A stretch of 64,000 nucleotides of DNA from Ignavibacteriales bacterium (GTDB lineage Bacteria; Bacteroidota; Ignavibacteria; Ignavibacteriales; Melioribacteraceae): assembly GCA_026390795.1 (NCBI GenBank), contig JAPLFG010000003.1, forward strand, positions 620,001 through 684,000, given 5' to 3'. Position numbers and translations under genes: made by a program. Under the pieces are notes generated by a model. That model was not told where the DNA came from, ran no database searches, and saw only the letters and a list, made by a program, of their open reading frames with translations. How positions within the stretch are numbered: position 1 is the first letter of the stretch; every line of letters starts with the position of its first letter. Positions 6,373 to 40,728 of this stretch are shown here, one piece after another.

Positions 6373-6405
6373 AAACGTTCCGATTGAAATTGTGTAACAA
6401 AATTA

Positions 6406-6822: not shown

Positions 6823-6970
6823 CTGTTCTCTTGCTCAATTACCCTTTGCAATATAAAAAAGAGGAATTAAACACCAAAACATAATGATTGAGATTTAAAT
6901 CTATTCAAGAGAAAAAATTTATAGTCCCAATTACTGCCATTAATGCCGAACGTAATATAGACGCTCTATT

Positions 6971-7162
6971 TTATTTTGGTTCCGTTTTGCAAGTAGAGAT
7001 ACCAAACGGCATATATACCGGGCACCATCCGGCAGCAGACGTGAAAAGCGGAATAATACCTAATACACCCCACCAAGATTGATAAACAAACCCAATTGCA
7101 ATTATTGCCAACCCTAAGAGAAGCCGTAGAACTCTGTCAATACTGCCGACGTTCTTTTTCAT
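6971..7162 (-). CDS. Small DUF2892 (YgaP-like) membrane protein
   Basis: A 63-residue protein of the DUF2892 family. It opens with the typical MKKNVGSIDRVLRLLLG, followed by two hydrophobic segments (LLLGLAIIAIGFVYQ and WWGVLGIIPLFTSAAGWCPVY) and the family's C-terminal GWCPVYMPFGISTCK, with two cysteines. Related domains form the membrane part of the rhodanese YgaP and also occur alone, sometimes linked to sulfur metabolism. The ribosome site (AAGGAG, six bases before the ATG) is strong. Neighbours on both sides are on the same strand but more than 100 bases away, so it may be transcribed alone. The family is clear; the function is not established. Confidence 0.85.
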   Translation of the reverse strand: MKKNVGSIDRVLRLLLGLAIIAIGFVYQSWWGVLGIIPLFTSAAGWCPVYMPFGISTCKTEPK

Positions 7163-7264
7163 ATTAACTCCTTCGTTTATTTGAAAGTTGGATGCATAAT
7201 TTGTGGAGAAGATTCAGATTGTATATTGTGCTTTTTGGAAAAATCACATTGCACCGGAAAACAA

Positions 7265-8392
7265 CTAAATTGATTTTTTAAAACATCTTCTTCGTTTATG
7301 TAATCTATTCTCAAAAAATCTCCATTGCGCTTGAATCTTGGAATTTTCTTCGAGCTCTCTATTGGTCTCCACCATTTTAATATTATTCCTAACAAAAACA
7401 TCGTTCACTTCATTAATGATAATTGCATTAACGCCTTTATTCTGCCACTCCGGCTTTACAGCAGTTAAATACAAATCAACGTTTGGATTATTTTTCATTG
7501 CTCTCAGAATGTGAATAAACCCGAAAGGAAATAATTTGCCTTTACTTTTTTGAACGGCAACAGAAAGAGAAGGCATGGTTATTCCAAAACCGATTACTTT
7601 ATTGTTACTATCCAGAAGAATTGGAACGTAATCCGGTTTAATGAATCCGAAGTATGCTTTAACGTACATATCAATTTGTTTATCCGTTAATTCCACGAAG
7701 CCGTAAAGATCTTTATAAGCTTCATTTATCAAATAAAAAATGTCTCTTGCATACGGAAGCATTTCTTTTGCTTTTTTAACTCTTAGAATGTGAAGATGAT
7801 TTTTTTCCGCAACTGCTTTTGCAATTCTAGAAACTTTTTCCGGTCCTTCAACATTTGGATTAAAATATACTAAGTACTCAACCCAATCCGCATCTTTTAC
7901 AAAACCAAGTTTCTCCATATGTTTTTGATAATAAGGATGGTTATATATAGATCCAAAAGTGCTTAACTCATTAAACCCTTCAATCAGCATTCCTTCACCG
8001 TCAAGATCGGTAAAGCCCAGAGGACCGTGAATTTTTTCCATCCCTTTTTCTTTTGCCCAGCTTATTACCTGCATAATTAAACTTTTCGAAACTTCTTCAT
8101 CGTCAATAAAATCAATCCATCCGAAACGAACAGATTTTTGATTCCATTTTGTGTTGTAATTATTGTTAATGATACCAGCTATTCTTCCGACAATCTCGTC
8201 ATCTTTGTAAGCAAGCCAATATTTAGCATCGCAAAAATCGAATGCGGGATTTTTCTTATTGCTAAGAGTTTTGATCTCGTCAAAAATTAGCGGCGGTACC
8301 CAATACTTATTTCCTTTGTATAGTGAAAAAGGGAGTTTGATAAACTTTTTCAATTCACTTTTAGACTTCACTTCTTTTAAAACAATAGCCAT
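7265..8392 (-). CDS. GNAT-superfamily acyltransferase-like protein
   Basis: A 375-residue protein of a conserved family found in Bacteroidota and relatives, often annotated as an N-acetyltransferase or YghO-like protein. The N-terminal part contains the segment KIHGPLGFTDLDGEGMLIEG, typical of the family. The C-terminal part has a GNAT-like region with VIGFGITMPSLSVAV and the acceptor segment KPEWQNKGVNAIIINEVND, and ends in ETNRELEENSKIQAQW...RLHKRRRC, also typical. The substrate is unknown. The coding sequence ends about 100 bases before the DUF2892 gene on the same strand. An overlapping frame at 7177-7401 does not continue the homology, so no frameshift is needed. Confidence 0.78.
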   Translation of the reverse strand: MAIVLKEVKSKSELKKFIKLPFSLYKGNKYWVPPLIFDEIKTLSNKKNPAFDFCDAKYWLAYKDDEIVGRIAGIINNNYNTKWNQKSVRFGWIDFIDDEEVSKSLIMQVISWAKEKGMEKIHGPLGFTDLDGEGMLIEGFNELSTFGSIYNHPYYQKHMEKLGFVKDADWVEYLVYFNPNVEGPEKVSRIAKAVAEKNHLHILRVKKAKEMLPYARDIFYLINEAYKDLYGFVELTDKQIDMYVKAYFGFIKPDYVPILLDSNNKVIGFGITMPSLSVAVQKSKGKLFPFGFIHILRAMKNNPNVDLYLTAVKPEWQNKGVNAIIINEVNDVFVRNNIKMVETNRELEENSKIQAQWRFFENRLHKRRRCFKKSI

Positions 8393-18414: not shown

Positions 18415-20637
18415 TTACAAATTCTTTTTCCAGAACTCTAACATTTTATTGTAGAGGTGTATCTGTGCGGGGCGATCATTTATCCCGTGCTGCCGCATCG
18501 GGTAGATCATCAAATCGAACATGATATTGGCTTTGATTAGTTCATCCATAAAAGCGTACGCATTTTGAATGTGAACGTTGTCGTCGTATGTTCCGTGTAC
18601 AAGCATCAATCTTCCAGAAAGATTTTTAGCGCTCTTTACCAATGAAGTTTTTTCATATCCTTCCGGATTAACTGCTTCGGTTTTCATTACGCTTTCGCCG
18701 AATTTCGAATCATAATAATGCCAATCGGTTACTGCTGCAACCGCAATCCCTGCCTTAAATTCTTTTGAATGAGTCATTGCGTTAAGTGTAAATGTTCCGC
18801 CGCCACTCCAACCCCAAACTCCAATACGCGATGAATCAATGTATGACTGATTTTTAAACCATTTCACACCATCAACAAGATCTTTGAGCTCTACTTCGCC
18901 TCCCAAATTCTTCATTAACAAATTTTCAAGTTTTTTACTTATTGCTGTTGCGTTACGCGGGTCAATGAATGCAACAAGAAAACCATTATCTACTAAAACT
19001 TGATCGTAAAAAAGTGAACCGCGCCATTTATTCAAAACTTGCGGTGCAGAAGGTCCTCCGTAAACGTAAATAATGAGAGGATATTTTTTGTTTGGATCAA
19101 AATCCTTCGGTTTCAAAATCTCGGCGGGTAAAGGAAAACCATCGTGAGCCGGGATTGTAAATTGCACTGGTCTTTGCAAATCGAGTGACGCAAGTTTATC
19201 AACATCGTAAGTTCCGATCTGTTTTAAAAATTTACCATCATTTTTGTAAAGTGAAAGAACCGGCGGAGTTTTAATATTCGAGTAAGAATCAAAATAGTAT
19301 TTTGCATCGGGACTGAAATTAATGGCATGAGTTCCTTCTTCCTGGGAAAGACGTTTCATTCCGGTTCCATCGAAGTTAATTCTATAAAGATGTTTTTCCG
19401 TTGCTGCTTTTTCCTGCGCGGTGAAGTATAAGATTTCATTTTTCTCATCAACCGCACTGATCGATTTTCTAACCCAATAAGCAGCACCTCCGCTTGCCGC
19501 TACTGCCCACTCTCCTTTTGTAACCTGATTGATCAACTTACCATCATTTGAGTATCGGTACAAATGAGCGTAACCGCTTCTTTCCGATGCCCAGAAAAAT
19601 TCTTTTCCCTTCTTGATGAAATGAAGATCATCGGAAACATTAACCCAGCATGGATCCGTCTCTTTTAGAATCGGTTTTAACTTTCCAGTCCAACGGTCTG
19701 CAAAATATAGATCAAGCTCATCCTGCATTCTGTTCATTGTTTGAACTGCAACTTGTTTACTGTCAGGCAGCCAATTTACACGTATAATATATTCGTACGG
19801 ATTATTTGAAAAATCCAACCAGGTAGTTTTTGAAGTTTCAATTTCCGAAACACCAACTTTAACAATCGGATTTGTACCGCCGGTTTTAGGATAACGCTGT
19901 TTAATAACATTTGGTACTGCGGGTTTAAAATCCGAGTAATACATCAAACTTACAGGCGACTCATCGGTTTGTAAGTATGCAATTGCTTTGGAATCGTTGG
20001 ACCACCAATAAGCAACATCGGCACGACCGAAAACTTCCTCCCAATAAACCCATGAAAGTGTTCCGTTCAAGATAGTTTCTGAACCGTCGCTGGTAACAGC
20101 TTTTTCATTTTTATTCTTGATGTCATAGAAATAAATATTATTTGTACGGACGTAAGCAAGCTTTTCTCCGTCGGGAGAAAAATTAACATTCTCTTCATCC
20201 TCTTTTGTATTTGTGACCCGTTCGAATGTTGCATCTTTCATATTAAGAAGGAAAACATCACCGCCGAATATGTAAAACCCTTTCTCCCCGTTTTTATCTA
20301 ATATGTTAGGCATTTGAAGCATAGGGGGAGTTTTTTCACCAAGAAATATTTTTAAACTCGTGATTGCTTTTTTCATATCCAAAGCCGGTTTAGAAACCGA
20401 AGTAGCAGGATCAAATAATTCGATGGTTCTTTCTTCGGCTGGTTTTTTAAAATCGAACATCATTGCCAAACCGTTATTCAGCCACTGAACATTCGGCAGG
20501 CGGGTCATCATCGCAGCTTCCGGACTATATCTCCACTCAATTGTAAGTTTTTTCTTTTCCTGCGCTGAAGTAAGAAGAGTAAAAAGAGTTAAGAAAAAAA
20601 TTATTTTTACTATTATTCTATTGCTGATTACTTTCAT
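18415..20637 (-). CDS. Dipeptidyl peptidase IV-like serine peptidase (S9B)
   Basis: A secreted peptidase that removes Xaa-Pro or similar dipeptides. After a signal peptide (MKVISNRIIVKIIFFLTLFTLLTSAQ) comes a beta-propeller domain (DPPIV_N, about residues 60-470, including the WVYWEEVFGR segment with its substrate-binding double Glu). The alpha/beta-hydrolase domain follows, starting near ILKPKDFDPNKKYPLIIYVY. Triad: Ser611 in GWSGGG, Asp685 in GTYDDNVH, His717 in RQHGIN. The start is placed at the ATG ending at 20637 because GGAG lies six bases upstream; an ATG four codons earlier overlaps that site. The M28 peptidase gene ends 21 bases upstream on the same strand, so both are probably one transcript for peptide breakdown. 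Confidence 0.92.
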   Translation of the reverse strand: MKVISNRIIVKIIFFLTLFTLLTSAQEKKKLTIEWRYSPEAAMMTRLPNVQWLNNGLAMMFDFKKPAEERTIELFDPATSVSKPALDMKKAITSLKIFLGEKTPPMLQMPNILDKNGEKGFYIFGGDVFLLNMKDATFERVTNTKEDEENVNFSPDGEKLAYVRTNNIYFYDIKNKNEKAVTSDGSETILNGTLSWVYWEEVFGRADVAYWWSNDSKAIAYLQTDESPVSLMYYSDFKPAVPNVIKQRYPKTGGTNPIVKVGVSEIETSKTTWLDFSNNPYEYIIRVNWLPDSKQVAVQTMNRMQDELDLYFADRWTGKLKPILKETDPCWVNVSDDLHFIKKGKEFFWASERSGYAHLYRYSNDGKLINQVTKGEWAVAASGGAAYWVRKSISAVDEKNEILYFTAQEKAATEKHLYRINFDGTGMKRLSQEEGTHAINFSPDAKYYFDSYSNIKTPPVLSLYKNDGKFLKQIGTYDVDKLASLDLQRPVQFTIPAHDGFPLPAEILKPKDFDPNKKYPLIIYVYGGPSAPQVLNKWRGSLFYDQVLVDNGFLVAFIDPRNATAISKKLENLLMKNLGGEVELKDLVDGVKWFKNQSYIDSSRIGVWGWSGGGTFTLNAMTHSKEFKAGIAVAAVTDWHYYDSKFGESVMKTEAVNPEGYEKTSLVKSAKNLSGRLMLVHGTYDDNVHIQNAYAFMDELIKANIMFDLMIYPMRQHGINDRPAQIHLYNKMLEFWKKNL

Positions 20638-20658
20638 TTTATTCTCCATTATATTTTT

Positions 20659-22017
20659 TTACCTAACCGGCAGAGGCCAAACAGGAAGACTTTCGTGTCC
20701 TTCTTCATCGACCGACTGAACCGCGAAGAAATAATTATCTTTTGAGTAAGGTAAGGTGATTTCAGTTTTATCGGTAAAGAATTTTTTCTCCCAAACCGGC
20801 AGATATGTTTCGCGCATCATGACAAAATATCCATGAGGAGTTTTGCCTTGCGGCGTTTTCCATCTCAGTGTTGTTGAATTAGTCAAACCGCTTACAACTA
20901 TTCCTACATTTTGCGGAGCTTGAGGAGCGGATGCTAAATTTGCAAGAACTGCAAGATTAACCGATGTAATTTTTTTGGCGTATTCGAAATCTTCAAATTC
21001 CGGAAGGTCGCCGTATTTAATTCCATTCTCTTCCCGCACATTTTGATGCTGATGCTCATAATTTTCATTCATCTCACAAAATCGTACCGCGGTAAAACCT
21101 TCACGATTAAACGGAGTATGATCGCCGCCCCGTAGAAATCTGTCGTTGCGGTAGATCAGTTTTACTTCAAGCTGGTCAACGTAACGTTCACCAACTTCTT
21201 TAATATAACGCGCAAGTTGCCTGGAATTGCCGTCGCTTTCCGCATTTGTTGATTGACGAATTTTCTTCATCTCATCAGTTTCTAATAATGGAATTCCTTC
21301 ACTAAAAACACGCACTTGCATATTGTCTTTAAGATCTGTTTCGCTGGAATGACTGTTGCTGATCATATCATTGTTGAGCATTGCAACAACTTCCCAATTC
21401 TGATCTTTAGCTTTTTTAGCAAGAAATGCTGAACCATTCAGTCCTTGTTCTTCTCCGGAAACAGCAACAAAAATAATTGTTGACGGGAAACTCTGTTTAC
21501 TCATTACACGTGCTAATTCTAAAACCGCGGAAACTCCGGAAGCGTCATCATTTGCACCGGGAGCCATAGCAGTTGAATCGTTTGCTTCGCTGTTGCGCGA
21601 ATCAAGATGACCGCTTACAATAAAAATTCTTTTATCATTTACATCAGTTCCTTTAAGAGTAGCCATCACATTTGTCAATAATATTTTTCTAACAATCCTT
21701 CTCCCATCGGGTTCAAGAATCAGAGAATCCAGTTTAACAGTTAACCTTCCATTGGATTCTTTGGCAAACTTTTCGAATTCAGATTTAACCCAATTGCAGG
21801 CAGCGCCGATTCCCTTCTCTTTATCTCCGCGCGTACTTAGAGTATGACGGGTCCCAAAGCTCACCATATTTCTTACATAGCTTTCCAGATTTGTAGCCGA
21901 GACTTCCTTTATCATCTCCGATATTTTTACATCGCGATTAATTAAATTTGTCTGTGCATACTCGATCGTACAATTGATTGCAAGAATTGCAAAAATAAAA
22001 AAGAGTTTATTTTTCAT
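20659..22017 (-). CDS. Secreted M28-family zinc aminopeptidase
   Basis: A 452-residue zinc exopeptidase with an N-terminal signal sequence (MKNKLFFIFAILAINC, possibly a lipobox at Cys16). The M28 core is clear: first zinc ligand His137 in SGHLDSR, bridging Asp157 in GANDDASG, catalytic Glu189/Glu190 in SGEEQG, Asp217 in NNDMI, and the last His in GGDHTPFN near residue 303. A C-terminal fibronectin-like domain (about 365-452) includes NSTTLRWKTPQGKTPHGYFV. It likely trims peptides outside the cytoplasm together with the DPP4-like enzyme encoded 21 bases downstream. The ribosome site GAGAGG precedes the ATG. The 177-base gap to the divergent GH27 gene should contain the promoters for both directions. 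Confidence 0.9.
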   Translation of the reverse strand: MKNKLFFIFAILAINCTIEYAQTNLINRDVKISEMIKEVSATNLESYVRNMVSFGTRHTLSTRGDKEKGIGAACNWVKSEFEKFAKESNGRLTVKLDSLILEPDGRRIVRKILLTNVMATLKGTDVNDKRIFIVSGHLDSRNSEANDSTAMAPGANDDASGVSAVLELARVMSKQSFPSTIIFVAVSGEEQGLNGSAFLAKKAKDQNWEVVAMLNNDMISNSHSSETDLKDNMQVRVFSEGIPLLETDEMKKIRQSTNAESDGNSRQLARYIKEVGERYVDQLEVKLIYRNDRFLRGGDHTPFNREGFTAVRFCEMNENYEHQHQNVREENGIKYGDLPEFEDFEYAKKITSVNLAVLANLASAPQAPQNVGIVVSGLTNSTTLRWKTPQGKTPHGYFVMMRETYLPVWEKKFFTDKTEITLPYSKDNYFFAVQSVDEEGHESLPVWPLPVR

Positions 22018-25684: not shown

Positions 25685-25821
25685 CTTAAAGATGCTCCTA
25701 CAAAAATTGAAAAAATAAATTAATTAAACAGAGCATCTGAAGACTTTTGGTAATTATTAAATCATCAAAAACAAAATTGCTCTATAAAAAGGGATTTTCA
25801 ATTTATATCGTAATTCCCTCG

Positions 25822-25893
25822 CTCCGCGGGCAAGGCTCGAACTTGCAACCCTGCGGTTAACAGCCGCATGCTCTACCATTGAGCTACCGCGGA
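25822..25893 (-). tRNA. tRNA-Asn (anticodon GUU)
   Basis: A 72-base cloverleaf on the minus strand. The acceptor stem pairs TCCGCGG with CCGCGGA (25887-25893 and 25823-25829 on the plus strand). The D-arm contains AGCTCAATGGTAGAGC, the anticodon arm TGCGG-CTGTTAA-CCGCA gives GTT, and the T-arm has the standard GTTCGAGCC. The discriminator base is G and CCA is not encoded. Confidence 0.95.
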
Positions 25894-29817: not shown

Positions 29818-31827
29818 ATGCAAAGATATTTTCTTGGGTTTATTCTTTTTTTAATTTCTTTCGCTTCTGTATTTCCCCAAGATGCTGCCGATTTTTGTTC
29901 TAAGGGAAAGATAAAAGCGTTTGCCCGGTTGAATAAAACATCTCACGTTTTATATCCCGGTGACAGCAACATAAATGTTACCTATTACAAATTGAATTTG
30001 ACAGTAACAACCAATCCAAATTTTTTAAATGGAATTATAACTGTTAAAGCCCGTCCGGCTAATTCTTCCATCAACTCATTCTATCTGGATTTGGTAAATG
30101 CGTTACATGTTTCATCTGTTAAATTAGACGGAATAAATTTGAATTTTTCTCAACCATCCGGCAGCAACCATCTTGTAATAAATCTTGATAAAACTTACGC
30201 ACTGGGTGAAGAATTCTCTGTGGACATCACCTATGGAGGTAGACCAACAAGCGGTTCCGGGTTTATAAGTCAAGCTTCATTTTCTTTTCGCGATAGCACA
30301 TCATCCTTTTATAAAACGGTAGTATCTTCATTGAGTGAGCCTTATGGCGCAAGAGATTGGTGGCCAAGTAAAGATACACCCGCCGATAAAGTTGATTCAT
30401 CAGACGTTTGGATAACAGCCGATAAATTTTTTGTCTCTGTTTCAAACGGATCATTGGAAGGAACTGTTGATAATTCCGATGGAACAAGAACTTATAAATG
30501 GAAAAATCATTATCCCATCGCAAATTATTTGATTTCGATTGCGATGACAAACTATCAAACAATTAATGATCAGTTTGAATACGAACCTGGAAAATTTCTT
30601 CCGGTGGTGCATTATTGCTATCCTGAAAGAATAGATAATACAAGAAGAAATGCCGTTGCAAAAACTATTGATATGCTAAAAATCTTTTCTCAAAAATTTG
30701 GACCTTATCCGTATTTAAAAGAGAAATACGGTCATGCGGAATTTGGCTGGGGCGGCGGAATGGAACACCAGACAATTACTTCAATGGGTAGCGGTGCTAT
30801 GAGTTACGAGACTTACATCGCTCACGAATTGGCTCATCAATGGTTCGGCGATAAAGTAACATGCAAAGATTGGCAGAACATTTGGCTGAATGAAGGATTC
30901 GCTACTTATTGCGAAAAGCTTTACTGGCTGTATGAATATGATCAACCGACTTTTAATTCTGTTGTAAACAACATGTTCGCTTCTGCTAAAACTGCGCAAG
31001 GAACAATATATGTTCAGAACATTAACGATGAAAGACAAATTTTTAATTCTGCCAGATCTTACAACAAAGGCGGTTCTGTTCTTCACATGCTGCGCGGAAT
31101 TGTAGGTGATGATAAATTTTTCCAAATCATGCGTGAGTATGCAAATGAACCCGGACTTGCATACAACGTTGCGACAACAGAAGATTTTCAACGGGTTGCT
31201 GAAAGAGTTTATGGTCAAAGTTTAGATTATTTTTTCAAGGAGTGGATTTACGGTGAGAATTACCCGAATTATTTTGCAGAATGGAGTTATAATTCCGATG
31301 TGAACGGTACATATAAGATTACTCTTAAGCTAACTCAAACAGCAAATTCGAATCCAAAATTTTTTACAATGCCAATTCAGATATTAATTACAACCACGCA
31401 CGGAACAAGCAGACAAACGTTAATCAATAATTCACAAATACAAACATTCGATCTAACTGTCGACGACAAACCAACTTCAATTCAGATTGATCCGGATAAT
31501 TGGATTTTAAAAAACATTTCCGGAATTGTTTCTTTAGAAAATGATGATCTACTGCCGGGCATCTATTCACTCAATCAAAATTATCCTAATCCGTTTAATT
31601 CCGAAACTCTCATTCGTTATAATCTGGCAACCGGCGGACATATTTCATTAACAGTGTATGACGAACTTGGAAGCCTAATAACTAAAATAGTTGACGAGAT
31701 AAAACCTAAGGGCTTGTATGAAGAAAAATTCGATGCAAAGAAATTCAATTTATCAAGCGGAACTTACTTTTATACTTTGCAAACTGATAGTTTCACTGAA
31801 ACGAAAAAAATGATTTTACTTAAATAA
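29818..31827 (+). CDS. M1-family zinc aminopeptidase with T9SS sorting domain
   Basis: A 669-residue secreted peptidase that cuts amino acids from peptide N-termini. After a signal peptide (MQRYFLGFILFLISFASVFP) comes an N-terminal beta domain, then the catalytic domain with GGMEHQTITSMGS and the zinc motif HELAHQWFGDK (His336, His340) with Glu359 in WLNEGFATY. The proton-donor Tyr lies further on, probably in RSYNKGGSVLHML. The last 80 or so residues form a type A sorting domain: LNQNYPNPFNSETLIRYNL, LTVYDELGSLITKIVDE, LSSGTYFYTLQTDSF and TKKMILLK. It is therefore exported by the type IX system and displayed or released. It lacks the long C-terminal helical domain of cytosolic PepN. Confidence 0.92.
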   Translation: MQRYFLGFILFLISFASVFPQDAADFCSKGKIKAFARLNKTSHVLYPGDSNINVTYYKLNLTVTTNPNFLNGIITVKARPANSSINSFYLDLVNALHVSSVKLDGINLNFSQPSGSNHLVINLDKTYALGEEFSVDITYGGRPTSGSGFISQASFSFRDSTSSFYKTVVSSLSEPYGARDWWPSKDTPADKVDSSDVWITADKFFVSVSNGSLEGTVDNSDGTRTYKWKNHYPIANYLISIAMTNYQTINDQFEYEPGKFLPVVHYCYPERIDNTRRNAVAKTIDMLKIFSQKFGPYPYLKEKYGHAEFGWGGGMEHQTITSMGSGAMSYETYIAHELAHQWFGDKVTCKDWQNIWLNEGFATYCEKLYWLYEYDQPTFNSVVNNMFASAKTAQGTIYVQNINDERQIFNSARSYNKGGSVLHMLRGIVGDDKFFQIMREYANEPGLAYNVATTEDFQRVAERVYGQSLDYFFKEWIYGENYPNYFAEWSYNSDVNGTYKITLKLTQTANSNPKFFTMPIQILITTTHGTSRQTLINNSQIQTFDLTVDDKPTSIQIDPDNWILKNISGIVSLENDDLLPGIYSLNQNYPNPFNSETLIRYNLATGGHISLTVYDELGSLITKIVDEIKPKGLYEEKFDAKKFNLSSGTYFYTLQTDSFTETKKMILLK

Positions 31828-31863
31828 TTTTGACCAAAAAGTATTGATGATATTTAAAGTGAA

Positions 31864-31931
31864 AGTCTTAGTAGCAAAATATCTTTGATTCATCTGCCAC
31901 TAAGACTCTAACCTGCCTGTCGGTAGACAGG
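31864..31931. repeat. Two hairpins between convergent genes
   Basis: First stem: AGTCTTAGTAGC (31864-31875) with GCCACTAAGACT (31896-31907), 11 of 12 pairs. Second stem: CCTGTC (31916-31921) with GACAGG (31926-31931). The CACTAAG-n-TCTAAC segment occurs twice, at 31898 and again at 31934, where it covers the end of the RND gene. No T-run follows either stem. They may act as two-way terminators or be part of a dispersed repeat. Confidence 0.55.
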
Positions 31932-31935
31932 ATCA

Positions 31936-34900
31936 CTAAGCTTCTAACAAACTCTGTCTTTTATTTCTTCTATTCTTAAAATAATTTTTTACTCTTTGGC
32001 CCGCATGTTCAAAATCGATATATAGAACTGGAATTACTACTAGCGTAAGTACAGTTGTCGCAGTTAATCCACCGATTACAGCTCTTGCAAGCGGAGACCA
32101 AGTTTCAGAACCCGATCCCATTTCAATTGCAAGCGGAACCATACCGAGAATTGTAGTTAATGCCGTCATTAATACCGGTCTCATTCTTGCCTTACCGCTG
32201 AATTCAACAGCTTCGTATAATTCCATTCCTTTATGTCTTTGTTGATTAATATAATCAACCAGAACAATTCCATTATTTACTGCAATTCCCACAAGCATAA
32301 CTATTCCGACAAGAGCCATTACTCCCAACTTGGTTCCGGTTATTGCAAGAAAGATGAATACACCGATTATTGAAAGAGGAACCGTGAACATTATTATCAA
32401 CGGATCTACAAAAGATTCGAACTGTGAAGCCATTATCATGTAAACCAATAATACTGCGGCAATGAATGCTAATCCTAAATAAAAGAATGCTTCCTGTTGA
32501 TCTTCCGCGGTTCCGCCGAGTATGATCTGATAATCAGAGGGAACCGGCGTATCGGCTATAATTTTTTTTATTTCAATTACAGCGGCGGAAAGATCGATGC
32601 CTGATAATCCGCATCCGACTGACACAAACCTATTTTGATTTTCTCTATAAATTGTCGGACTCGATTGTTCCTCGACAATGGCGGCTACGTCTTTTAATTT
32701 TATTCTGCCGCCCGTTGGTATTGCAAGCTCTATCTGTTCCAGAGATTCTTTTTTGTTTCTGTACTCTTTAGCAAACTGAACATATATGTTATACTCATCA
32801 CTCTTTTCACGGAATTGAGAAGCGACTTTTCCTTGAATAGCCGTTGAAATATTCCCCGCGACCTGAAGTGTGGATAAATTATAATGGTTTAATAAATCCT
32901 TGTTGAGATGAACTTGCAACTCCGGAGTTTCTTCTTTTGTGTTCAAAGAAATGTCAACCAACCCTTTCACTTTTTCCATTTTGGATTTCAATTCATTCGC
33001 AATTACTTTTGCGCCGGCTACATCAAATCCAAGAACTTTTACTTCAATGTCTTTTTCGGTTGTGAATGCTGCATTCTCCATAAATGTATATGTAACGCCC
33101 GGCATCTGATCAAATTTTTTTCTCAATCTATCCTGTATTTCAAATTGCGATGTTTTTCTTTTTTCCTTTGGAGTCAATTTTAGAAAAAGCTCGATAGTGC
33201 TTGCGGTTGTACCAAATGCCGCAATACCTTCTCTTTCACCATAAAATATTGACAGAGATTCAACTTCCTCTTTATTAACTACTTCCTTCACAATATCTTC
33301 AATTTTATACGCATAAATTCTTGTTTGTTCAATAGGAGTACCCGAAGGTGATTCCATCATAACATCTATTATTCCTTGATCGGATTTAGGCAGAAACTCA
33401 CCGCCAAGCAACGCCGCTAATCCGCATGATAGAATGAATAGAACGGTAACAGAAATTAAAATTGTTTTTCTATGATAGATTGACCAGTGCAAAATTCGGC
33501 TATACCAATTCGTAAATCTAATTAGCCAGTCACCCATTTTATCTTTAATCCTTGTAAAGCGGTTCTCTTTCTTTTTTGTTTCGAGCTTTAGAATTCTTGT
33601 TGCCATCATCGGCACGATTGTAACCGCAACAATTAACGATACAATCAAACTGTACGAAATTGTAAGTACCATATCTTTAAATAACTGTCCGGTGATGTTT
33701 GGTACGAATAAAACCGGTACGAATACGGATATGGTCGTTAATGTTGATGCGGTAATTGCCATTCCTACTTCTGTTGTTCCGACATCGGCAGATTCTATTA
33801 GATTTTTTTCCATCTCTTGATGACGGTAAATATTTTCGAGCACAACTATAGAGTTATCAACCAACATACCGATCGCAAGCGCAAGACCGGCCATGGAGAT
33901 TATATTCAAAGTAATATTCGCCGCATACATTACTGCAAAAGTTGCTATTACAGAAAGAGGAATTGAGATTCCCATTATTATGCTTCCGCGTATATTTCTT
34001 AAAAAGAAATAGATTACAACAAACGATAAGACGAATGCAATTATTGCGGAATTCTTCAAGTTGTTTACGGACTGCATAATGAATTCCGACTGGTCCCACA
34101 TTTGGCTCAACTTTGTACCCTGTGGTAAACCTGCAATAATATCGGGAAGAGCTTTTTTAATATTTCTGCTGGTCAGAACAGTATTGGCATCTGATTGTTT
34201 CATCACGAACAACATAACACCTTCGCCGTAATCTGCCCTGACCTCATTTGTATTTTCTTTGTATCCATCTTCTACATTTGCAACATCACTGATGTAAACC
34301 GGCACACCGTTTTTATATGTTATGATTGATTTCTTAATCTGATCTAACGATAAATATTCACTGAGCACACGCAAGTTATAGTTCTTGCCTTTAGTTTGAA
34401 TTGTCCCGGCGGGCTGCAAACCGCTCCCCTGTTGAATTGTTAACAAAACATCATTGGGAGATAAATCGTACGATGCTAGTAAAACGGGATTAATACTAAC
34501 ATTTATTTGTCTTTGCTGACCGCCCATAGTTTGAACTGAAGCCACACCGTCAACTCTTTCAAGCAATGGTTCAATTTTTTCTTCGGCTAATCTTCTTATT
34601 TCTGCAGGCCCGAGATACGGAGAACTTATGCTGAAATAACCTATCGGCATCATCGATGGATCGAAGACAAAGACAACCGGTTCGGTTGCATCGGTTGGTA
34701 AAAAATCTCGTATATAATCTAAATTTTTTCTGATATCGTTTTCTGCAATGTCCATATCGGTTCCATATTTGAACTCAAGCATTACAACAGAGGAACCTTT
34801 GAAAGATTGTGAACTAACTTTTGCAATATTTTTTACAGATGAAACAGTTTCTTCGACTGGTTTGGTTATCAAGTTTTCAATGTCTTCAGGTCCTACACCC

Positions 34901-35055
34901 GTGTAACTTGTAATTACACCAGCAAACGGAAAAGTTATATCCGGGAAGAAATCAATTTTTAATTGCGAAAAGGAGAAGAAACTAAATAAAATTACAACTG
35001 CATAAATCATTACGAGTGTAATCTGCCTTTTAATAGAAAATTTTGTTAGTAGCAT
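31936..35055 (-). CDS. RND efflux pump, inner-membrane transporter (HAE1/AcrB-like)
   Basis: A 1039-residue proton-driven pump with twelve membrane segments and two large periplasmic loops. The N-terminus (LLTKFSIKRQITLVMIYAVV) is typical. The proton-relay motif of segment 4 reads GMLVDNSIVVLENIYRH, and segment 6/7 regions and the AVNNGIVLVDYINQ segment of TM10 are also present. The second acidic residue of the classical DD pair in segment 4 is Asn here, which is common in this subgroup. It works with the membrane-fusion protein and TolC-like channel encoded just upstream (12 and 35 bases apart). Substrates are unknown. The last codons overlap a repeated sequence that may have altered the C-terminus slightly. 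Confidence 0.94.
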   Translation of the reverse strand: MLLTKFSIKRQITLVMIYAVVILFSFFSFSQLKIDFFPDITFPFAGVITSYTGVGPEDIENLITKPVEETVSSVKNIAKVSSQSFKGSSVVMLEFKYGTDMDIAENDIRKNLDYIRDFLPTDATEPVVFVFDPSMMPIGYFSISSPYLGPAEIRRLAEEKIEPLLERVDGVASVQTMGGQQRQINVSINPVLLASYDLSPNDVLLTIQQGSGLQPAGTIQTKGKNYNLRVLSEYLSLDQIKKSIITYKNGVPVYISDVANVEDGYKENTNEVRADYGEGVMLFVMKQSDANTVLTSRNIKKALPDIIAGLPQGTKLSQMWDQSEFIMQSVNNLKNSAIIAFVLSFVVIYFFLRNIRGSIIMGISIPLSVIATFAVMYAANITLNIISMAGLALAIGMLVDNSIVVLENIYRHQEMEKNLIESADVGTTEVGMAITASTLTTISVFVPVLFVPNITGQLFKDMVLTISYSLIVSLIVAVTIVPMMATRILKLETKKKENRFTRIKDKMGDWLIRFTNWYSRILHWSIYHRKTILISVTVLFILSCGLAALLGGEFLPKSDQGIIDVMMESPSGTPIEQTRIYAYKIEDIVKEVVNKEEVESLSIFYGEREGIAAFGTTASTIELFLKLTPKEKRKTSQFEIQDRLRKKFDQMPGVTYTFMENAAFTTEKDIEVKVLGFDVAGAKVIANELKSKMEKVKGLVDISLNTKEETPELQVHLNKDLLNHYNLSTLQVAGNISTAIQGKVASQFREKSDEYNIYVQFAKEYRNKKESLEQIELAIPTGGRIKLKDVAAIVEEQSSPTIYRENQNRFVSVGCGLSGIDLSAAVIEIKKIIADTPVPSDYQIILGGTAEDQQEAFFYLGLAFIAAVLLVYMIMASQFESFVDPLIIMFTVPLSIIGVFIFLAITGTKLGVMALVGIVMLVGIAVNNGIVLVDYINQQRHKGMELYEAVEFSGKARMRPVLMTALTTILGMVPLAIEMGSGSETWSPLARAVIGGLTATTVLTLVVIPVLYIDFEHAGQRVKNYFKNRRNKRQSLLEA

Positions 35056-35067
35056 ATTTTCATTCCC

Positions 35068-36174
35068 TTATTCAATTACATTAACAGTCTGACCTTCCTT
35101 GACAATATTCTGCCCAACAATTATTACCGAGTCGCCAATATTAAGTCCGTTCATTATCTCTATTTGTCCGTTATTTGCAATTCCCGTTTTTACTTCTTTC
35201 ATCTTTGCTTTGTTTTTCTCAATTATAAACAAATAGTATTTTTTAAATGTGTTTTGCAAACCTGTTTCTCTATCAATTTTGATTTCAGTCTGGGGGATTA
35301 AAGAAACTTCAGGGACAACTAAACTATTAGCAATATTTTTCGTCTCAATTAAAAATTCACCGAACATACCGGATTTTATTCTACTGTCTTTTGAGAGAAT
35401 CTCAATTTCAACTTCCATTGATTTTGACGTCTGATCGATTGAAGTATTTATTTTATCTACTCTGCCGTCAAATTCCACACCTGGAATTGTAGGAAATTTA
35501 ACACTAACTCTTTGACCGGCTTTAACATTATGAACATCCTCACCAGTCAAGTAAATTTTCGACTTCATCTTTGAAGGTGAAATTACCTGAACAACCGGTT
35601 GACCAATATTAATACTCTGATTGTTTTCGACATATAACGCTGCAACTACGCCGTTAAAAGGAGCTTTTACAAAACTATTTTCGTACAACTCTTTAGCCTG
35701 TTCATACATAGATTTTGCTTGCTCTAATGAATGATCGGTAGCTTCCTTGGCGGTTTTTGCCTGGTCGTACTGCTGTGGGCTAATTGCTTTTTGAGAATGA
35801 AGTTGATTCATTCGTTCAAAATCTAATGCAGACAATTTTGCCTGTGCTTCCGCAGTTTTTAATGCTGCGCTTGCAATATCCAATCCTTGCCTAAGGATTT
35901 CATTTTTTTGTTCAACAAGAATTTGATTTTGCTTAACAGCCTGTCCCGGTGTTACATTAATTTTCTTAACATGTTCGGCAACTTTGCTGTAAACAATTAC
36001 ATCTTCATCGCTCTTCACTGAACCGGTCGACCTTATGTACTTTGAAATCGATTCCGATTTAACTTTATAAATTTTTACCGGTACAGTTTTTTCAACATTC
36101 TCTTCTTTTTGTTCCGAACACCCGATCAAGACTAATACAATCAAAGAAATTATTAAAAATATTTTGTTCTTCAT
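35068..36174 (-). CDS. RND efflux membrane-fusion (periplasmic adaptor) lipoprotein
   Basis: A 368-residue adaptor linking the RND pump to the outer-membrane channel. The N-terminus is a lipoprotein signal (MKNKIFLIISLIVLVLIGC, Cys19). Then come a lipoyl-like barrel half, a long alpha-hairpin (about 85-165, rich in Ala, Gln, Lys and Glu, with NQLHSQKAISPQQYDQAKTA), the second lipoyl half (FVKAPFNGVVAALYVENNQ), a beta-barrel and a membrane-proximal domain. The start is the ATG ending at 36174, preceded by GGGAGG. An in-frame TTG eight codons upstream would place that site inside the gene. It lies 35 bases after the TolC-like gene and 12 bases before the pump gene. Confidence 0.93.
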   Translation of the reverse strand: MKNKIFLIISLIVLVLIGCSEQKEENVEKTVPVKIYKVKSESISKYIRSTGSVKSDEDVIVYSKVAEHVKKINVTPGQAVKQNQILVEQKNEILRQGLDIASAALKTAEAQAKLSALDFERMNQLHSQKAISPQQYDQAKTAKEATDHSLEQAKSMYEQAKELYENSFVKAPFNGVVAALYVENNQSINIGQPVVQVISPSKMKSKIYLTGEDVHNVKAGQRVSVKFPTIPGVEFDGRVDKINTSIDQTSKSMEVEIEILSKDSRIKSGMFGEFLIETKNIANSLVVPEVSLIPQTEIKIDRETGLQNTFKKYYLFIIEKNKAKMKEVKTGIANNGQIEIMNGLNIGDSVIIVGQNIVKEGQTVNVIE

Positions 36175-36209
36175 TTTATCCTCCCGCAGAGCGGTCAATT
36201 TTGAAAAAA

Positions 36210-37556
36210 TTATTGCCAGATTTTATCTAATAGCCCAACCGACTTTAGTAAAGTCAATTGACTAACATTGTAATTATAGATTCCCTGTAAATAATCGTTT
36301 CTACTTTTTGTATAAAGAAGTTCTGCATTCAAAACATCTAGTTGATTACTCATTCCTTGAGTATAAAGCACATTTGAGATACGCAGACTTTCTTCAAATT
36401 GGTCCAGTGCGTCTTTTAGGCTTTGCAGATTTTTTCCCGCTTCTGTATAACTGTAGTAGCTTTGTTCAATATCCAATTCAGCACCGATCTGCATTTGTTT
36501 TACATATAGATCCATTTGTTCGCTTTTTATTTTCGCAATTTGAAAATCTAGCACTCGCCTTCCCCCTTCGAATAGCGGCCATGAAAAAGAAAGCGTAATA
36601 GATTTGGATCTTATGTAGTCGTTCCATCTGACTTTTGCATTATCCATTTGAGCGGCATGATCAACACTTGCGGCAATAGCCACAGAAGGTGCAAATTGAC
36701 CAAGGGCAATTTTCTCACCCGATTTGGTTGCTTCCTGCTGATACTTTAATGCTTTGATGTCATTTCGATTTTCTGTCGAAAGTTTTTTGAATTCCTCAAG
36801 AGAAATTTTTGAATACTCATTAAGAAATTCAGTTTTATCAAGTAAATCAGTGACTACCAGTGAATCAGTTAATGGGATGTTCAATAAAGCCTTAAGTCTC
36901 TGCGCAGATAATTTTTTATTAGAAAGCGCCGATTCCAGCATTGGAAGTGTTGACGAATATTGAGCTTTAGCTCTTTGGAAGTCCAATTCTCTAGCAGTTC
37001 CGGCATTGTAAAATTTTTCAACTTGATCCAGATTTTCTTTAGCTACGTTAACCGCGTCTTCAGCCGCTTTAGATATTTCATTCGAGAGAATAATGGCATA
37101 GTATGCCTGCATCGAATTTAAAACGGTTTCTTCTTCTTTTCCCTTTAATTCTTCACTCAAAGATTTTTTTATGTTGCTTTGAATATCGTGGTTAAACCAC
37201 CGGCTTCCGCCTGTGAACAGCGGGAGCGAAAGACTTAACGAATGCTGGAAATTGTATTGCGTTCCCACAACAAATCGTTGACCCATAAATATGAATACAG
37301 GCAGCTCAACATTCTTCTGGATAATTCCCTGGTATGATAAGGTTGGTAAAAAATAGGTTAGCGATTTCCATGTTTCAAGATCTTGTGCATCATAATCGAG
37401 AGATTTTAATTTGAGACCAAGATTATCTTTCAGTGAAATATCAACAACATTTTTCCAAGATAAATAAATAATCTTCTTCCCACTTTGTCCTTCGGCAGAA
37501 TTCCACAAAAATGCTAATAACAAAAAGATAATCGACGCATTCTTACTTCTAATCAT
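36210..37556 (-). CDS. TolC-family outer-membrane efflux channel
   Basis: A 448-residue outer-membrane protein with signal peptide (MIRSKNASIIFLLLAFLWNSAEG). Two repeated outer-membrane efflux domains follow, each with long helices rich in Ala, Leu, Glu and Gln. Segments such as VEKFYNAGTARELDFQRAKA and SNVLYTQGMSNQLDVLNAEL mark the matching positions of the two halves. It forms a trimeric channel completing the tripartite pump with the adaptor and RND protein encoded downstream. The start is the ATG ending at 37556, five bases after GAGGTGA; a GTG three codons upstream is part of that ribosome site. It is the first gene of the pump operon, 135 bases after the TetR gene. Confidence 0.93.
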   Translation of the reverse strand: MIRSKNASIIFLLLAFLWNSAEGQSGKKIIYLSWKNVVDISLKDNLGLKLKSLDYDAQDLETWKSLTYFLPTLSYQGIIQKNVELPVFIFMGQRFVVGTQYNFQHSLSLSLPLFTGGSRWFNHDIQSNIKKSLSEELKGKEEETVLNSMQAYYAIILSNEISKAAEDAVNVAKENLDQVEKFYNAGTARELDFQRAKAQYSSTLPMLESALSNKKLSAQRLKALLNIPLTDSLVVTDLLDKTEFLNEYSKISLEEFKKLSTENRNDIKALKYQQEATKSGEKIALGQFAPSVAIAASVDHAAQMDNAKVRWNDYIRSKSITLSFSWPLFEGGRRVLDFQIAKIKSEQMDLYVKQMQIGAELDIEQSYYSYTEAGKNLQSLKDALDQFEESLRISNVLYTQGMSNQLDVLNAELLYTKSRNDYLQGIYNYNVSQLTLLKSVGLLDKIWQ

Positions 37557-37691
37557 AAAGATCACCTCTGTTGTTCTTATAAAAATCTCTAAACAGTTAA
37601 TGATAAAACTTTACAATAGATGTATGAGTCTCTTTATTTGTTACAAAGACATAACATTCCATGTAGAATAAACTAATCTAAAAATTAGAAT

Positions 37692-38294
37692 TCAGTCCTT
37701 AAGTTCTTTATAAAAATTATCCCAGAGTGTAAGTATTTCCGGAAATAAATTCCCCACCTTGCCCTCTAAGAGAAGACGTAAACTGATACCGTTATTTGAA
37801 TAAATAAACATACGGGCAATTTGTTCGTCAGTCATTGGCGAGGAAAACTCTTTTTTGTTTCTTGATGATTCAATGACTTTCGTCCACGTCTTTAGTTCAT
37901 CGTTTAGAACTTCCATCATTTTATCTTTAAAGCCCGGAAAGAGATTCATTGAATCAAAAAGTATTGTAAAATAATTGATGTTTACACCTTCATCCCAGTT
38001 CTTAAGAATTTCTTTTAATTCACCCAGAACTTTCTTTTGTTGATCGATGTAATCATGATAGAATTCAAAAAGTGAATTCTTATTTAGTATGCCGTAGTCA
38101 ATCATCATATTCTTGAAATAGAAGGTATCGACAATTTCAAAGAACAACTTTTCCTTACTAGGGAAGTAATGATAAAAAGCACCTTTGGAAAGTCCCGTCG
38201 CATTTACAATTTCATTCATCGTCACTTCTTTGAAACTCTTTTGTAAGAAGAGACTAAATGCTGTTTCAAGTATATGTTCTTTTGAATCGCTCAT
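37692..38294 (-). CDS. TetR-family transcriptional regulator
   Basis: A 200-residue regulator. The N-terminal DNA-binding domain (about residues 5-50) reads HILETAFSLFLQKSFKEVTM, then NEIVNATGLSKGAFYHYFPS and KEKLFFEIVD, the standard TetR helix-turn-helix. The C-terminal helical domain would bind an effector and has no close signature that I can name. Its gene lies upstream of, and in line with, the TolC-adaptor-RND operon, so it very likely represses the pump until a substrate appears. A candidate operator (38297-38314) overlaps the region just before its start, which fits autoregulation. The start is ATG. Confidence 0.9.
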   Translation of the reverse strand: MSDSKEHILETAFSLFLQKSFKEVTMNEIVNATGLSKGAFYHYFPSKEKLFFEIVDTFYFKNMMIDYGILNKNSLFEFYHDYIDQQKKVLGELKEILKNWDEGVNINYFTILFDSMNLFPGFKDKMMEVLNDELKTWTKVIESSRNKKEFSSPMTDEQIARMFIYSNNGISLRLLLEGKVGNLFPEILTLWDNFYKELKD

Positions 38295-38296
38295 AA

Positions 38297-38314
38297 ACCG
38301 ACCGTTTGGTATGT
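38297..38314. promoter_or_regulatory. Candidate TetR operator
   Basis: ACCGACC-GTTT-GGTATGT: the two seven-base arms match at five of seven positions. The form is like operators of AcrR-type repressors (ACATACC...GGTATGT). It lies two bases upstream of the TetR start codon. I could not find an equally good copy in the 135-base gap before the TolC-like gene. Confidence 0.4.
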
Positions 38315-38429
38315 CAAACTTAAAAATTCCTATTATTCAATACAAGAAAAGATTCTAATAAGTCTCACGTATTATATTTTATGCTTTACACTGCTATAGA
38401 ATCGAAATGTGTTACAACTACTATCAAAC

Positions 38430-38618
38430 ATGCATGCTGCTTTATAAATTTATAATGTACTCGGAATTTTTATTAAACCGGTTGAAGATGAGACTAAGCC
38501 GAAAGGTTAGTACGAAGTAAAGTTCGACGCCCAAAAACTTAACTAATACATCGTTTTTTATTATAATCTAGACACTGAAAATTTTACCTAAATCAGAAAG
38601 ATGATATTCTTAAAATAA
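38430..38618 (+). pseudogene. Decayed remnant of a T9SS type A sorting domain
   Basis: Reading from 38430 on the plus strand gives MHAAL*IYNVLGIFIKPVED, then ETKPKG*YEVKFDAQKLN*Y, then IVFYYNLDTENFT*IRKMIF and LK*, where * marks stops. It lines up with the end of the M1 aminopeptidase (VYDELGSLITKIVDEIKPKG, YEEKFDAKKFNLSSG and TKKMILLK), including the position of the final stop at 38616-38618. Four stops interrupt the frame. Upstream, in another frame, 38405-38431 reads ESKCVTTTIK, a weak trace of the NPFNPTTTIK motif. So this is the tail of a lost secreted-protein gene on the plus strand. It lies in the 358-base gap between the TetR and S9 peptidase genes; the rest of that gap holds only the operator candidate and the terminator. 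Confidence 0.75.
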
Positions 38619-38643
38619 AAAGAGGCGTTTCATCAACGCCTCT
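38612..38643 (-). terminator. Rho-independent terminator of the S9 peptidase gene
   Basis: A nine-base-pair stem (AGAGGCGTT at 38621-38629 with AACGCCTCT at 38635-38643) with a five-base loop. The minus strand continues with TTTTTATTTT. It ends nine bases from the peptidase stop and could also have served the lost plus-strand gene. Confidence 0.85.
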
Positions 38644-38652
38644 AAAATCTGG

Positions 38653-40728
38653 TTATTCAAACTGAAGATTTCTCACGAGTTTTTTACTGTCCCATGGTGC
38701 GGGGTCACCACCTAAATATTTATGAAACCATTCCAGATGAGAGTTATAATAAAGCGGCATCGATTTCAAACCACTCGGCCAATGCCCATCGTTTTTAAAA
38801 ATTATTAATCTCGAATCAATTCCTTTCTTCTGCAATTCCGTAAAGTAGCGGATGCTTTGTGTGTAAGGAATCCGGTAATCTCTTTCTCCGGTAATTATTA
38901 GTGTGGGTGTTGCAAAATTTTCTAAGTATTTACTAGGCGACATTTTTTCGTAATCATTCGGGTTATTCGTTTTCGATTTTAAATCCCAATTTGCGAACCA
39001 TAATTCTTCCGTTTCATCTTTAAATTCAGTCAGGTCATAAATTCCCATCATCGATGCAAGGCATTTATACCTTCTTGTTTTTGCCTGAAGAAGATTCATG
39101 AAGTAGCCACCGTACGACCATCCCATCGCGCCTATTCTTTTCTTGTCGACATAAGGAAGATTTTCAAGATAGTCCGTTACTTTCATTACATCCTGATAAA
39201 CTTTACCATCCCAGTCACTTGAAATAGCTGCGGTAAATTTTTGCCCGTAACCTGTTGAACCATGAGGATTGGGAAAAGCAACTATATAACCGGCGCCGGG
39301 ATATACCTGCCAGTCGGCACGAAACGAATCCATCCATTGCATTTGCGGACCGCCGTGAACATTTATAACAAGGGGATATTTTTTCGCCGGATCAAAATTG
39401 TGCGGCTTCACAATGAATAAATGAATTGGAGTTCCATCAGCACCTTTAACCCACACCTGCTCTGCTGGTCTGATATCAACTTTCTCCTCAATCTCTTTAT
39501 TGAAAAAAGTGAGATCTCGTTTCTCGGATTTTTTAAAATCGAACCGGGCAATATCAACTGGTTTGTAAACGTAAGAATATGTGTAAACAATAAAATCATT
39601 TTGGGGAGAAAGAGTGAAACTTGATATCGCCAGGTTCTCAATTATTTTTTTAATCTCAAGTGTCTCAATATTGATTTTGAATAATGGCTGGTATCCTTTT
39701 TCGTGTCCGGTAAAATAAATTGATTTGGAATCGTTCGACCATTCAAAATCGTTCACCCAATTATCAAATGCTTCAGTTATAATTTTACTTGTTCCGTTTT
39801 TTCTATCGTAAATCGCAAGCCGGATTTTATCGGATTCATAACCCGGGACAATTTGGGTTTGATAAGCAATATATTTGCCATCCGGAGAATATTTTGGATT
39901 GGAATCCGAACCTTGGTTCGCTGCTGTAATATTTTTTAATCCGGTTCCGTCGGCAGAGACTACCCATACATCAACATTTGTTGACGATTCCGGGTGCGAT
40001 ACTCTTTTGGAATCGAATGTGATTTCTTTTGAATCGGGAGAGAATGAATAGTTGCTGCTTCCGCCTGCCGCAAATGCAGGTGAATCGAAATAACCGGGAG
40101 TTACATCAGAGACACTTTTCTTTTCTATATCATAAACAAAGAGATGAGTATACTGTCCGTCTGCATATTCGGTCCAATGTCTAATAAAAAGACTGTCTGC
40201 TAAGTGGGCTTGAACCGGTCCGCTCTCCATTGCCTGACTAATTTTCTTATTGCAGTTTTCATCAGCACCGCACTCCGGAAAAACCTGCGCGGTAAATAAA
40301 AAATATTTTCCGTTCTCAGATAGTTTAGGAGAAGAAATACCCAATCCGTATTTCGTAATTTGAGTTGCTTCTCCACCCAACAGTGACAAATGATAAACTT
40401 GTTCCGATCCGTCGCGTGTTGATACAAAATAAATTCCTTTATCGTCAATACTCCAAATTGGGTTGTAATCGGCTGCGGGATTTGTTGTTAACTGTTTTAT
40501 GTCCGAACCGTCAGTGTTCATTAGGTAAATGTCGGTATTGGATTTCGATTTGTGTAAATCAGTTGCAGTAACCGTAAATGCGATCTTTGTGCCATCGTGT
40601 GAAATTACTTGCGAGCCGACATTTTTTATTTTATAAATATCCTCAATTGTGAAAGCGCTTTTCTGAGCTGAAGTAATTGAGGCTAAAATCAAAAACATTG
40701 TTGTAAACAAGAAACACTTCTTTATCAT
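38653..40728 (-). CDS. Secreted S9-family oligopeptidase
   Basis: A 691-residue serine peptidase. The signal peptide (MIKKCFLFTTMFLILASITS) is followed by a WD40/TolB-like beta-propeller (about 30-410, with repeated SPDGKYIAYQT-like strands). The alpha/beta-hydrolase domain follows from about residue 440. Triad: Ser538 in GWSYGG, Asp617 in GERDYRIP, His649 in NDGHWPSG. This layout fits prolyl oligopeptidase or acylaminoacyl-peptidase-like enzymes, as in dipeptidyl peptidase 5, more than DPP4. It cuts short peptides outside the cytoplasm. The ribosome site GGAGG is strong and a terminator follows, so the gene is monocistronic. A divergent TonB receptor gene begins 361 bases away. Confidence 0.92.
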   Translation of the reverse strand: MIKKCFLFTTMFLILASITSAQKSAFTIEDIYKIKNVGSQVISHDGTKIAFTVTATDLHKSKSNTDIYLMNTDGSDIKQLTTNPAADYNPIWSIDDKGIYFVSTRDGSEQVYHLSLLGGEATQITKYGLGISSPKLSENGKYFLFTAQVFPECGADENCNKKISQAMESGPVQAHLADSLFIRHWTEYADGQYTHLFVYDIEKKSVSDVTPGYFDSPAFAAGGSSNYSFSPDSKEITFDSKRVSHPESSTNVDVWVVSADGTGLKNITAANQGSDSNPKYSPDGKYIAYQTQIVPGYESDKIRLAIYDRKNGTSKIITEAFDNWVNDFEWSNDSKSIYFTGHEKGYQPLFKINIETLEIKKIIENLAISSFTLSPQNDFIVYTYSYVYKPVDIARFDFKKSEKRDLTFFNKEIEEKVDIRPAEQVWVKGADGTPIHLFIVKPHNFDPAKKYPLVINVHGGPQMQWMDSFRADWQVYPGAGYIVAFPNPHGSTGYGQKFTAAISSDWDGKVYQDVMKVTDYLENLPYVDKKRIGAMGWSYGGYFMNLLQAKTRRYKCLASMMGIYDLTEFKDETEELWFANWDLKSKTNNPNDYEKMSPSKYLENFATPTLIITGERDYRIPYTQSIRYFTELQKKGIDSRLIIFKNDGHWPSGLKSMPLYYNSHLEWFHKYLGGDPAPWDSKKLVRNLQFE

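Follow-up and report, generated by a model that had tools for sequence, protein, structure and literature searches.

A decayed type IX sorting domain beside an S9 peptidase gene, best read as the old tail of an M1 aminopeptidase cut off by an acquired efflux island

The remains of a type IX secretion system (T9SS) sorting domain, lying without a protein between a tetR gene and an S9 peptidase gene, raise the question of which gene they once terminated and how they came to be separated from it. The locus occupies part of a 64,000-nucleotide stretch (the window) of an Ignavibacteriales genome of 4.08 Mb, designated G000; compared genomes carry G-numbers, their contigs the letter C and sorting-domain loci the letter L. 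G005, G010, and G001 belong to the same genus as the window, and G038, G041, and G016 to other genera. Sorting domains at the end of the neighboring M1 aminopeptidase are of two types, termed alpha (that of the window M1) and beta (that of the G010 M1 and of the relic, hereafter the ghost). The features on which the argument turns are as follows.

29818-31827, plus strand: M1 aminopeptidase gene, intact, with its own alpha-type sorting domain at about 31567-31824 (PF01433, E 8.8e-31; PF18962, 33.1 bits; TIGR04183, 37.4 bits)
31828-38414, no strand: stretch from M1 to the ghost, absent here from G005 and G010, whose contigs pass from the M1 tail to S9 (its ends placed to within about 100 bases)
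38415-38618, plus strand: ghost, a decayed beta-type M1 sorting domain (profile match, DNA identity to G010, shuffles, alignment)
38621-38643, minus strand: S9 terminator hairpin, next to the ghost and shared with G005 and G010 (nine-pair stem and T-run; alignments)
38653-40728, minus strand: S9 peptidase gene, convergent neighbor of M1 in G005, G010, and G001 (PF00326, E 5.8e-55)

Identity and decay of the ghost

The ghost is read on the plus strand, between tetR (37692-38294, minus) and the S9 gene (38653-40728, minus), and is a relic of the sorting-domain family rather than a working member of it. A genome-specific profile, built from 30 sorting domains of the window genome with that of M1 excluded, recovered it at 38415-38615 in a whole-genome search that read through stops (44.9 bits, E 4.1e-11); scored directly with this profile it reached 46.4 bits, whereas none of 2,000 dinucleotide shuffles, searched in all six frames, exceeded 9.9. 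For protein and profile comparisons its stops were masked as X. The initial annotation, which had recognized a sorting domain at this place, is thereby upheld, although a match to sorting-domain profiles is obtained only with the genome's own: NCBIfam and Pfam scans of the masked ghost returned no family at E<=10, and it is not among the 64 matches to TIGR04183 in the genome at E<=0.001. Translation of 38295-38620 gives ...IYNVLGIFIKPVEDETKPKG*YEVKFDAQKLN*YIVFYYNLDTENFT*IRKMIFLK*, with internal stops in the homologous part starting at 38445 (TAA), 38508 (TAG), 38544 (TAA), and 38589 (TAA). These are the four stops, one TAG and three TAA, that had been noted in an alignment with the end of M1, and the tail of the window M1 is indeed the best match of the masked ghost in its own genome (E 1.9e-14, 47% identity), ahead of a different gene (E 1.2e-10), out of 49 places matched elsewhere in the genome at E<=1. 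The observation that even the final stop is preserved also holds, since the TAA at 38616-38618 aligns with the M1 stop codon of both G005 and G010. The start had been placed too early, at 38380: the profile match begins at 38415 and the blastn match to G010 at 38416, identity to G010 in the alignment rises from 35-45% before about 38415 to 70-90% after it, and the first 35 or so bases of the earlier call align no better than chance. Thus the ghost resembles a T9SS type A sorting domain (TIGR04183, or PF18962 Por_Secre_tail) in sequence and in the position of its last stop, but differs in carrying four stops, in lacking the NYPNPFN start, in having no protein body attached whose reading frame it could end, and in being missed by the curated profiles.

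Both its position and its sequence are orthologous to the M1 ends of relatives. The ghost matches the 3' end and terminator of the M1 gene in G010 with 79% DNA identity (blastn, E 4.4e-53), one 1-base and one 3-base deletion being required in the ghost by the alignment, and the M1 3' end of G005 matches its 3' half. Beyond this locus the best relatives of the beta tail are again M1 tails, those of G006 (62%) and G007 (55%), which rank ahead of the 149 non-M1 tails compared. In G005 and G010 the tail is the open-frame end of M1 beside S9; in the window it occupies the same site beside S9 but is separated from M1 by 6.6 kb. A DNA search of the window genome found no other copy of the ghost better than E 0.05, so recent copying of another tail is not its source. 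Judged by sequence, the ghost is an M1-aminopeptidase tail.

Codon constraint has been lost. Where G005 and G010 share the same base, the ghost has changed at 14 of 69 first, 17 of 69 second, and 12 of 47 third codon positions, lacking the third-position excess that is evident among window-specific changes in S9 (4.7%, 2.4%, and 21.9% at positions 1, 2, and 3, and 34.6% at fourfold sites); the counts against G010 alone, in which G010's own changes are included, are 15/70, 12/70, and 20/69. The total divergence of the ghost (43/185, or 23%) is about two-thirds of the fourfold-site value in S9. Together, the missing third-position excess and this level of divergence suggest that the ghost has been free of constraint during much of the window lineage, an estimate uncorrected for multiple hits and for the shared stem branch.

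Empty sites in relatives and the efflux island

A five-gene alignment places G005 and G010 together as sisters to the window, (window,(G005,G010)), with 100% bootstrap support, and both have the locus without an island. In G005 the M1 gene (C84:4097-6103) and the S9 gene (6144-8216) are convergent, as are those of G010 (C104:16837-18840 and 18882-20954). The gaps between the M1 and S9 matches are 40 and 41 bases, respectively, and 145 bases in G001, whose M1 is diverged (56% identity in the body); the two genes are direct convergent neighbors in all three. The intact homolog that the initial annotation had proposed to look for in relatives is therefore the S9-facing end of M1, and the statement that the rest of the ghost's gene is gone is probably wrong: the owner of this tail in relatives is M1, and its body stands intact 6.6 kb upstream in the window. 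When the G005 contig is compared with the window by blastn, one block ends at the M1 stop and another runs from 38460, inside the ghost, through S9. The two blocks overlap, the last 162 M1 bases of G005 matching both window tails, as do the last 206 M1 bases of G010. These overlaps imply that the window holds 6.6 kb extra relative to both relatives, with an M1-type tail on each side. An M1 tail at the relatives' empty site, combined with an island between the intact M1 and the ghost, further implies that M1 was split or re-tailed and not simply lost.

The downstream neighbor of M1 varies within the genus, with five arrangements among the eight genomes read, the window included (G002, G006, G008, and G011 lay outside this set). 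M1 is followed by S9 in G001, G005, and G010, by a homolog of window gene 43721 in G004 and G009, by a TonB receptor in G007, by the gene at 48431 in G003, and by the efflux island in the window. The closest homologs of S9 itself among named records, taking the best four of 32 loci (81-91% identity), are in three MAGs labeled 'Bacteroidetes bacterium' and in 'Ignavibacteriae bacterium HGW-Ignavibacteriae-3'. Just 3' of the window M1, at 31912-31931, lies a palindrome, CCTGCCTGTCGGTAGACAGG, the only such place in the window, the search pattern having been derived from the same site; LPTGRQAG in the M1 tail of G033 may represent a small repeat of this kind within coding sequence.

The stretch between M1 and the ghost contains a TetR-RND efflux cluster.

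31936-35055, minus strand: RND efflux pump of the AcrB family (PF00873, E 4.5e-256)
35068-36198, minus strand: HlyD-type membrane-fusion adaptor (PF16576, E 1.3e-20; in none of 11 other genus members at E<=1e-50)
36210-37565, minus strand: outer-membrane efflux protein (PF02321, E 5.1e-47)
37692-38294, minus strand: TetR-family regulator (PF00440, E 1.5e-16; in none of 11 other genus members at E<=1e-12)
38295-38314, minus strand: 20-base sequence directly upstream of tetR that is invariant among the five aligned genomes (window, G038, G016, G041, and G037), a probable TetR operator

Neither tetR (E<=1e-12) nor the HlyD adaptor gene (E<=1e-50) was found in any of the 11 other genus members sampled, eight of which are at least 90% complete. 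The island's closest relatives are in other genera (G038, G041, and G016; 73-79% DNA identity by blastn). This patchy distribution suggests that the island was probably acquired horizontally; its GC content does not stand out. No integrase or relaxase is present among the four named genes of the 6.6 kb, and no tRNA lies near the island, the sole tRNA gene of the window being at 25821-25893. A 14-base exact direct repeat occurs near both island ends (31971-31984 and 38605-38618). It was rejected as the island's border because both copies fall within other homology: the left one in the AcrB gene, where the sequence is still alignable to G038 (from 31950), and the right one in the M1-homologous part of the ghost. 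Other exact 14-base pairs are present in the stretch. The right junction of the island is probably within 38327-38414, about 90 bases that gave no blastn match and could not be aligned, situated between the conserved region upstream of tetR (to 38326) and the ghost. Other genomes, as far as the surroundings of the island were read, do not have it beside an M1 gene; G038 has no sorting domain there, and in G016 and G041 the only ones are about 3 kb and about 8 kb from tetR.

Tail types and exchange between lineages

The M1 body can be aligned throughout the window, G005, and G010, while the tails fall into the alpha and beta types. G005 combines both.

31731-31734, plus strand: switch in the M1 tail, at which G005 passes from window-like (alpha) to ghost- and G010-like (beta) sequence (maximum chi2 42.5, equaled in 0 of 10,000 permutations)

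Before 31731, and back to 31412, G005 carries the alpha state at 58 of 76 informative sites; after 31734 it carries the beta state at 28 of 30. The M1 of G010 leaves the window type from about the NYPNPFN motif onward, and the ghost is G010-like in both halves of the domain. These switch points place boundaries within the sorting domain against both empty-site relatives. The earlier suggestion that the ghost may mark a recombination point is borne out. The nearest relative of the alpha tail beyond the locus is the M1 tail of G004 (78% over 36 residues).

Exchange has not been confined to tails. At about 30831-31059 the M1 bodies of the window and G005 share 96-98% identity, compared with 84-93% in most other parts, and around the same coordinates the G010 body is only 63-75% identical to both and in part close to G004 and G006. 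In contrast to the five-gene tree, one built from M1 bodies groups the window with G005 (support 1.000). Such tracts and the discordant tree indicate that allelic exchange between lineages occurs in M1. It follows that the G005 mosaic alone is no proof of island excision, as plain allelic exchange could have produced it. As a separate observation, the interval at about 30718-31059 exists as two allelic body types, one in the window, G005, and G011 and the other in G010, G004, and G006, a sign of lineage exchange.

The partners in recombination had been envisaged as long, near-identical sorting domains across one genome. This does not fit the locus: among the tails collected, the best same-genome DNA match of the window M1 tail scores only 63.5 bits, and the ghost, as noted, has none better than E 0.05. 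With no close paralog of the M1 tails among those collected, exchange here was probably between M1 genes, and the recombining sequences were probably M1-type tails of different lineages.

Origin of the ghost and wider implications

The locus is best read as a junction of M1 and S9 that an acquired efflux island has split, leaving the old M1 tail as the scar. In the ancestor shared with G005 and G010, M1 would have run directly into S9, tail to tail. In the window lineage a 6.6-kb stretch with the TetR-RND island would then have joined within the M1 tail, likely through homologous recombination that paired two M1-type sorting domains; the new DNA would have supplied the M1 body on the left with a working alpha tail, and the resident beta tail would have been left on the right with neither body nor start codon, decaying since. 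We hold this account, in which the ghost is the displaced original tail, to be somewhat better than an even bet. Counted against it are that no donor with the island next to M1 has been seen, that 38327-38414 is unaccounted for, that the ghost and the window M1 tail are only about 47% identical as proteins, so that today's homology is poor, and that allelic exchange in the M1 body could explain the G005 mosaic. As for the turnover of secreted-protein genes read from the ghost by the initial annotation, a dead tail of M1 kinship does exist, but the evidence favors a junction split by the island over an independent gene lost from this place.

The main rival, to which we give a minority share of belief that is far from trivial, locates the events in the relatives. 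The ancestor would have had two M1-type tails, in tandem M1 copies or with a cassette between them; G005 and G010 would each have lost the interval by tail-to-tail recombination at different points, and the window would have kept both tails, the second decaying. Simple descent on (window,(G005,G010)) then accounts for all four half-tails (alpha 5' in the window and G005; beta 5' in the ghost and G010; beta 3' in the ghost, G005, and G010; alpha 3' in the window, akin to G004), and two distinct switch points suit two independent deletions. The same account requires two independent deletions, and a homology search of the M1 locus in 57 genomes (E<=1e-60, many of them drafts) found no tandem M1 pair. 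Many genomic islands enter the 3' ends of genes, leaving a restored gene on one side and a displaced 3' fragment on the other, and the window likewise has a restored gene on one side and a dead 3' fragment on the other. An integrase-driven element could have entered the M1 3' end, repaired the gene by means of a tail copy that it carried, pushed the displaced tail to its far end, and later lost its mobility genes. We regard this as quite improbable: such islands would be expected to bring an integrase and short exact border repeats, whereas the four named genes include neither integrase nor relaxase, no tRNA is near, the 14-base repeat does not bound the island, the repeated tails are about 200 bases long and diverged, and the boundary differs between the G005 and G010 empty sites.

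It is very improbable that the ghost derives from an unrelated secreted-protein gene between M1 and S9 whose tail the M1 genes of G005 and G010 later acquired. Tails do appear to have been replaced between unrelated genes in these genomes; set against this, the beta tail's best outside relatives are M1 tails and no body of such a gene is left. Chance resemblance or an assembly artefact, suggested by the failure of the curated TIGR04183 and Pfam profiles, has practically no weight, being refuted by the 2,000 shuffles, the genome-wide E of 4.1e-11, and the orthologous DNA match in G010; nor would misassembly be expected to give such deep decay.

How far the displaced M1 tail exemplifies a wider process was assessed from sorting-domain frames collected in the window genome (59), G005 (36), and G010 (57), fewer than the 65, 43, and 70 profile matches in these genomes. 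Reciprocal-best matching of bodies (at least 55% identity over 80 residues) gave 41 pairs, not independent of one another. In 26 of them the sorting domain was no less conserved than the body, and in six it fell more than 15 points lower, M1 being one of the six. These low-tail pairs comprised 1 of 13 between the window genome and G005, 5 of 15 between the window genome and G010, and 0 of 13 between G005 and G010. The clearest case is L107 of G010, with a body 84% and a tail 52% identical to the window-genome ortholog; over 246 bases the DNA of this tail is 94% identical to the tail of L110, also of G010, while the bodies have no blastp match, so this is probably a recent tail copy between genes.

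Stops were present in two of the 67 sorting-domain matches in the window genome at E<=1, and further orphan or frameshifted tails are present in G005 and G010. A probable second tail ghost lies outside the window at G000:C3:318081-318191 (minus), with one TAG and one TAA (profile positions 37-73, E 1.2e-8). Another relic is split over two frames at L179 (G005:C87, about 1242-1550) and truncated at L220 (G010:C18, about 1514-1709), in an alignable 1.5-kb stretch of 80.6% identity; in G005 two further tails follow downstream on that strand. At L182 (G005:C21), two sorting domains at 844-1113 and 1853-2101, within about 1 kb, are 96% identical over 251 bases, the second in an 87-residue frame without a body. 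The tails of L197, L216, and L223 in G010 contain an extra ETRRGE/ETRHGE-type insert that is missing in their window-genome orthologs. Over about 150 bases the DNA of L215 is 92-93% identical to two of these tails, and a single tail subtype or small repeat may be spreading.

The gain and retention of T9SS sorting domains by genes seem little documented, and among the matches listed from the T9SS literature, titles and abstract openings mention neither exchange nor relics of the sorting domain itself. In the excerpted account of Porphyromonas gingivalis (PMC5266723), gingipains and adhesins undergo domain rearrangement and allelic exchange, with catalytic and adhesin modules varying and the C-terminal domain of about 80 residues called conserved. 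The likeness to the window lies in T9SS cargo genes diversified through homologous recombination; the difference from that excerpt is that the exchanged part here is the sorting domain itself.

The locus provides a worked case: the site is empty in two sister species and filled in the window, the G005 tail is a mosaic whose switch point can be placed, and a decaying scar is present. We tentatively raise the possibility, which we consider doubtful as a general rule, that type IX sorting domains serve as recombination handles, allowing tail swaps and the entry of foreign clusters at the 3' ends of cargo genes, with ghosts as the scars. If so, the many similar tails in each genome would let secreted proteins swap their export tails, and tail ghosts, were the process general, would offer a means of tracing where insertions and tail swaps once took place.
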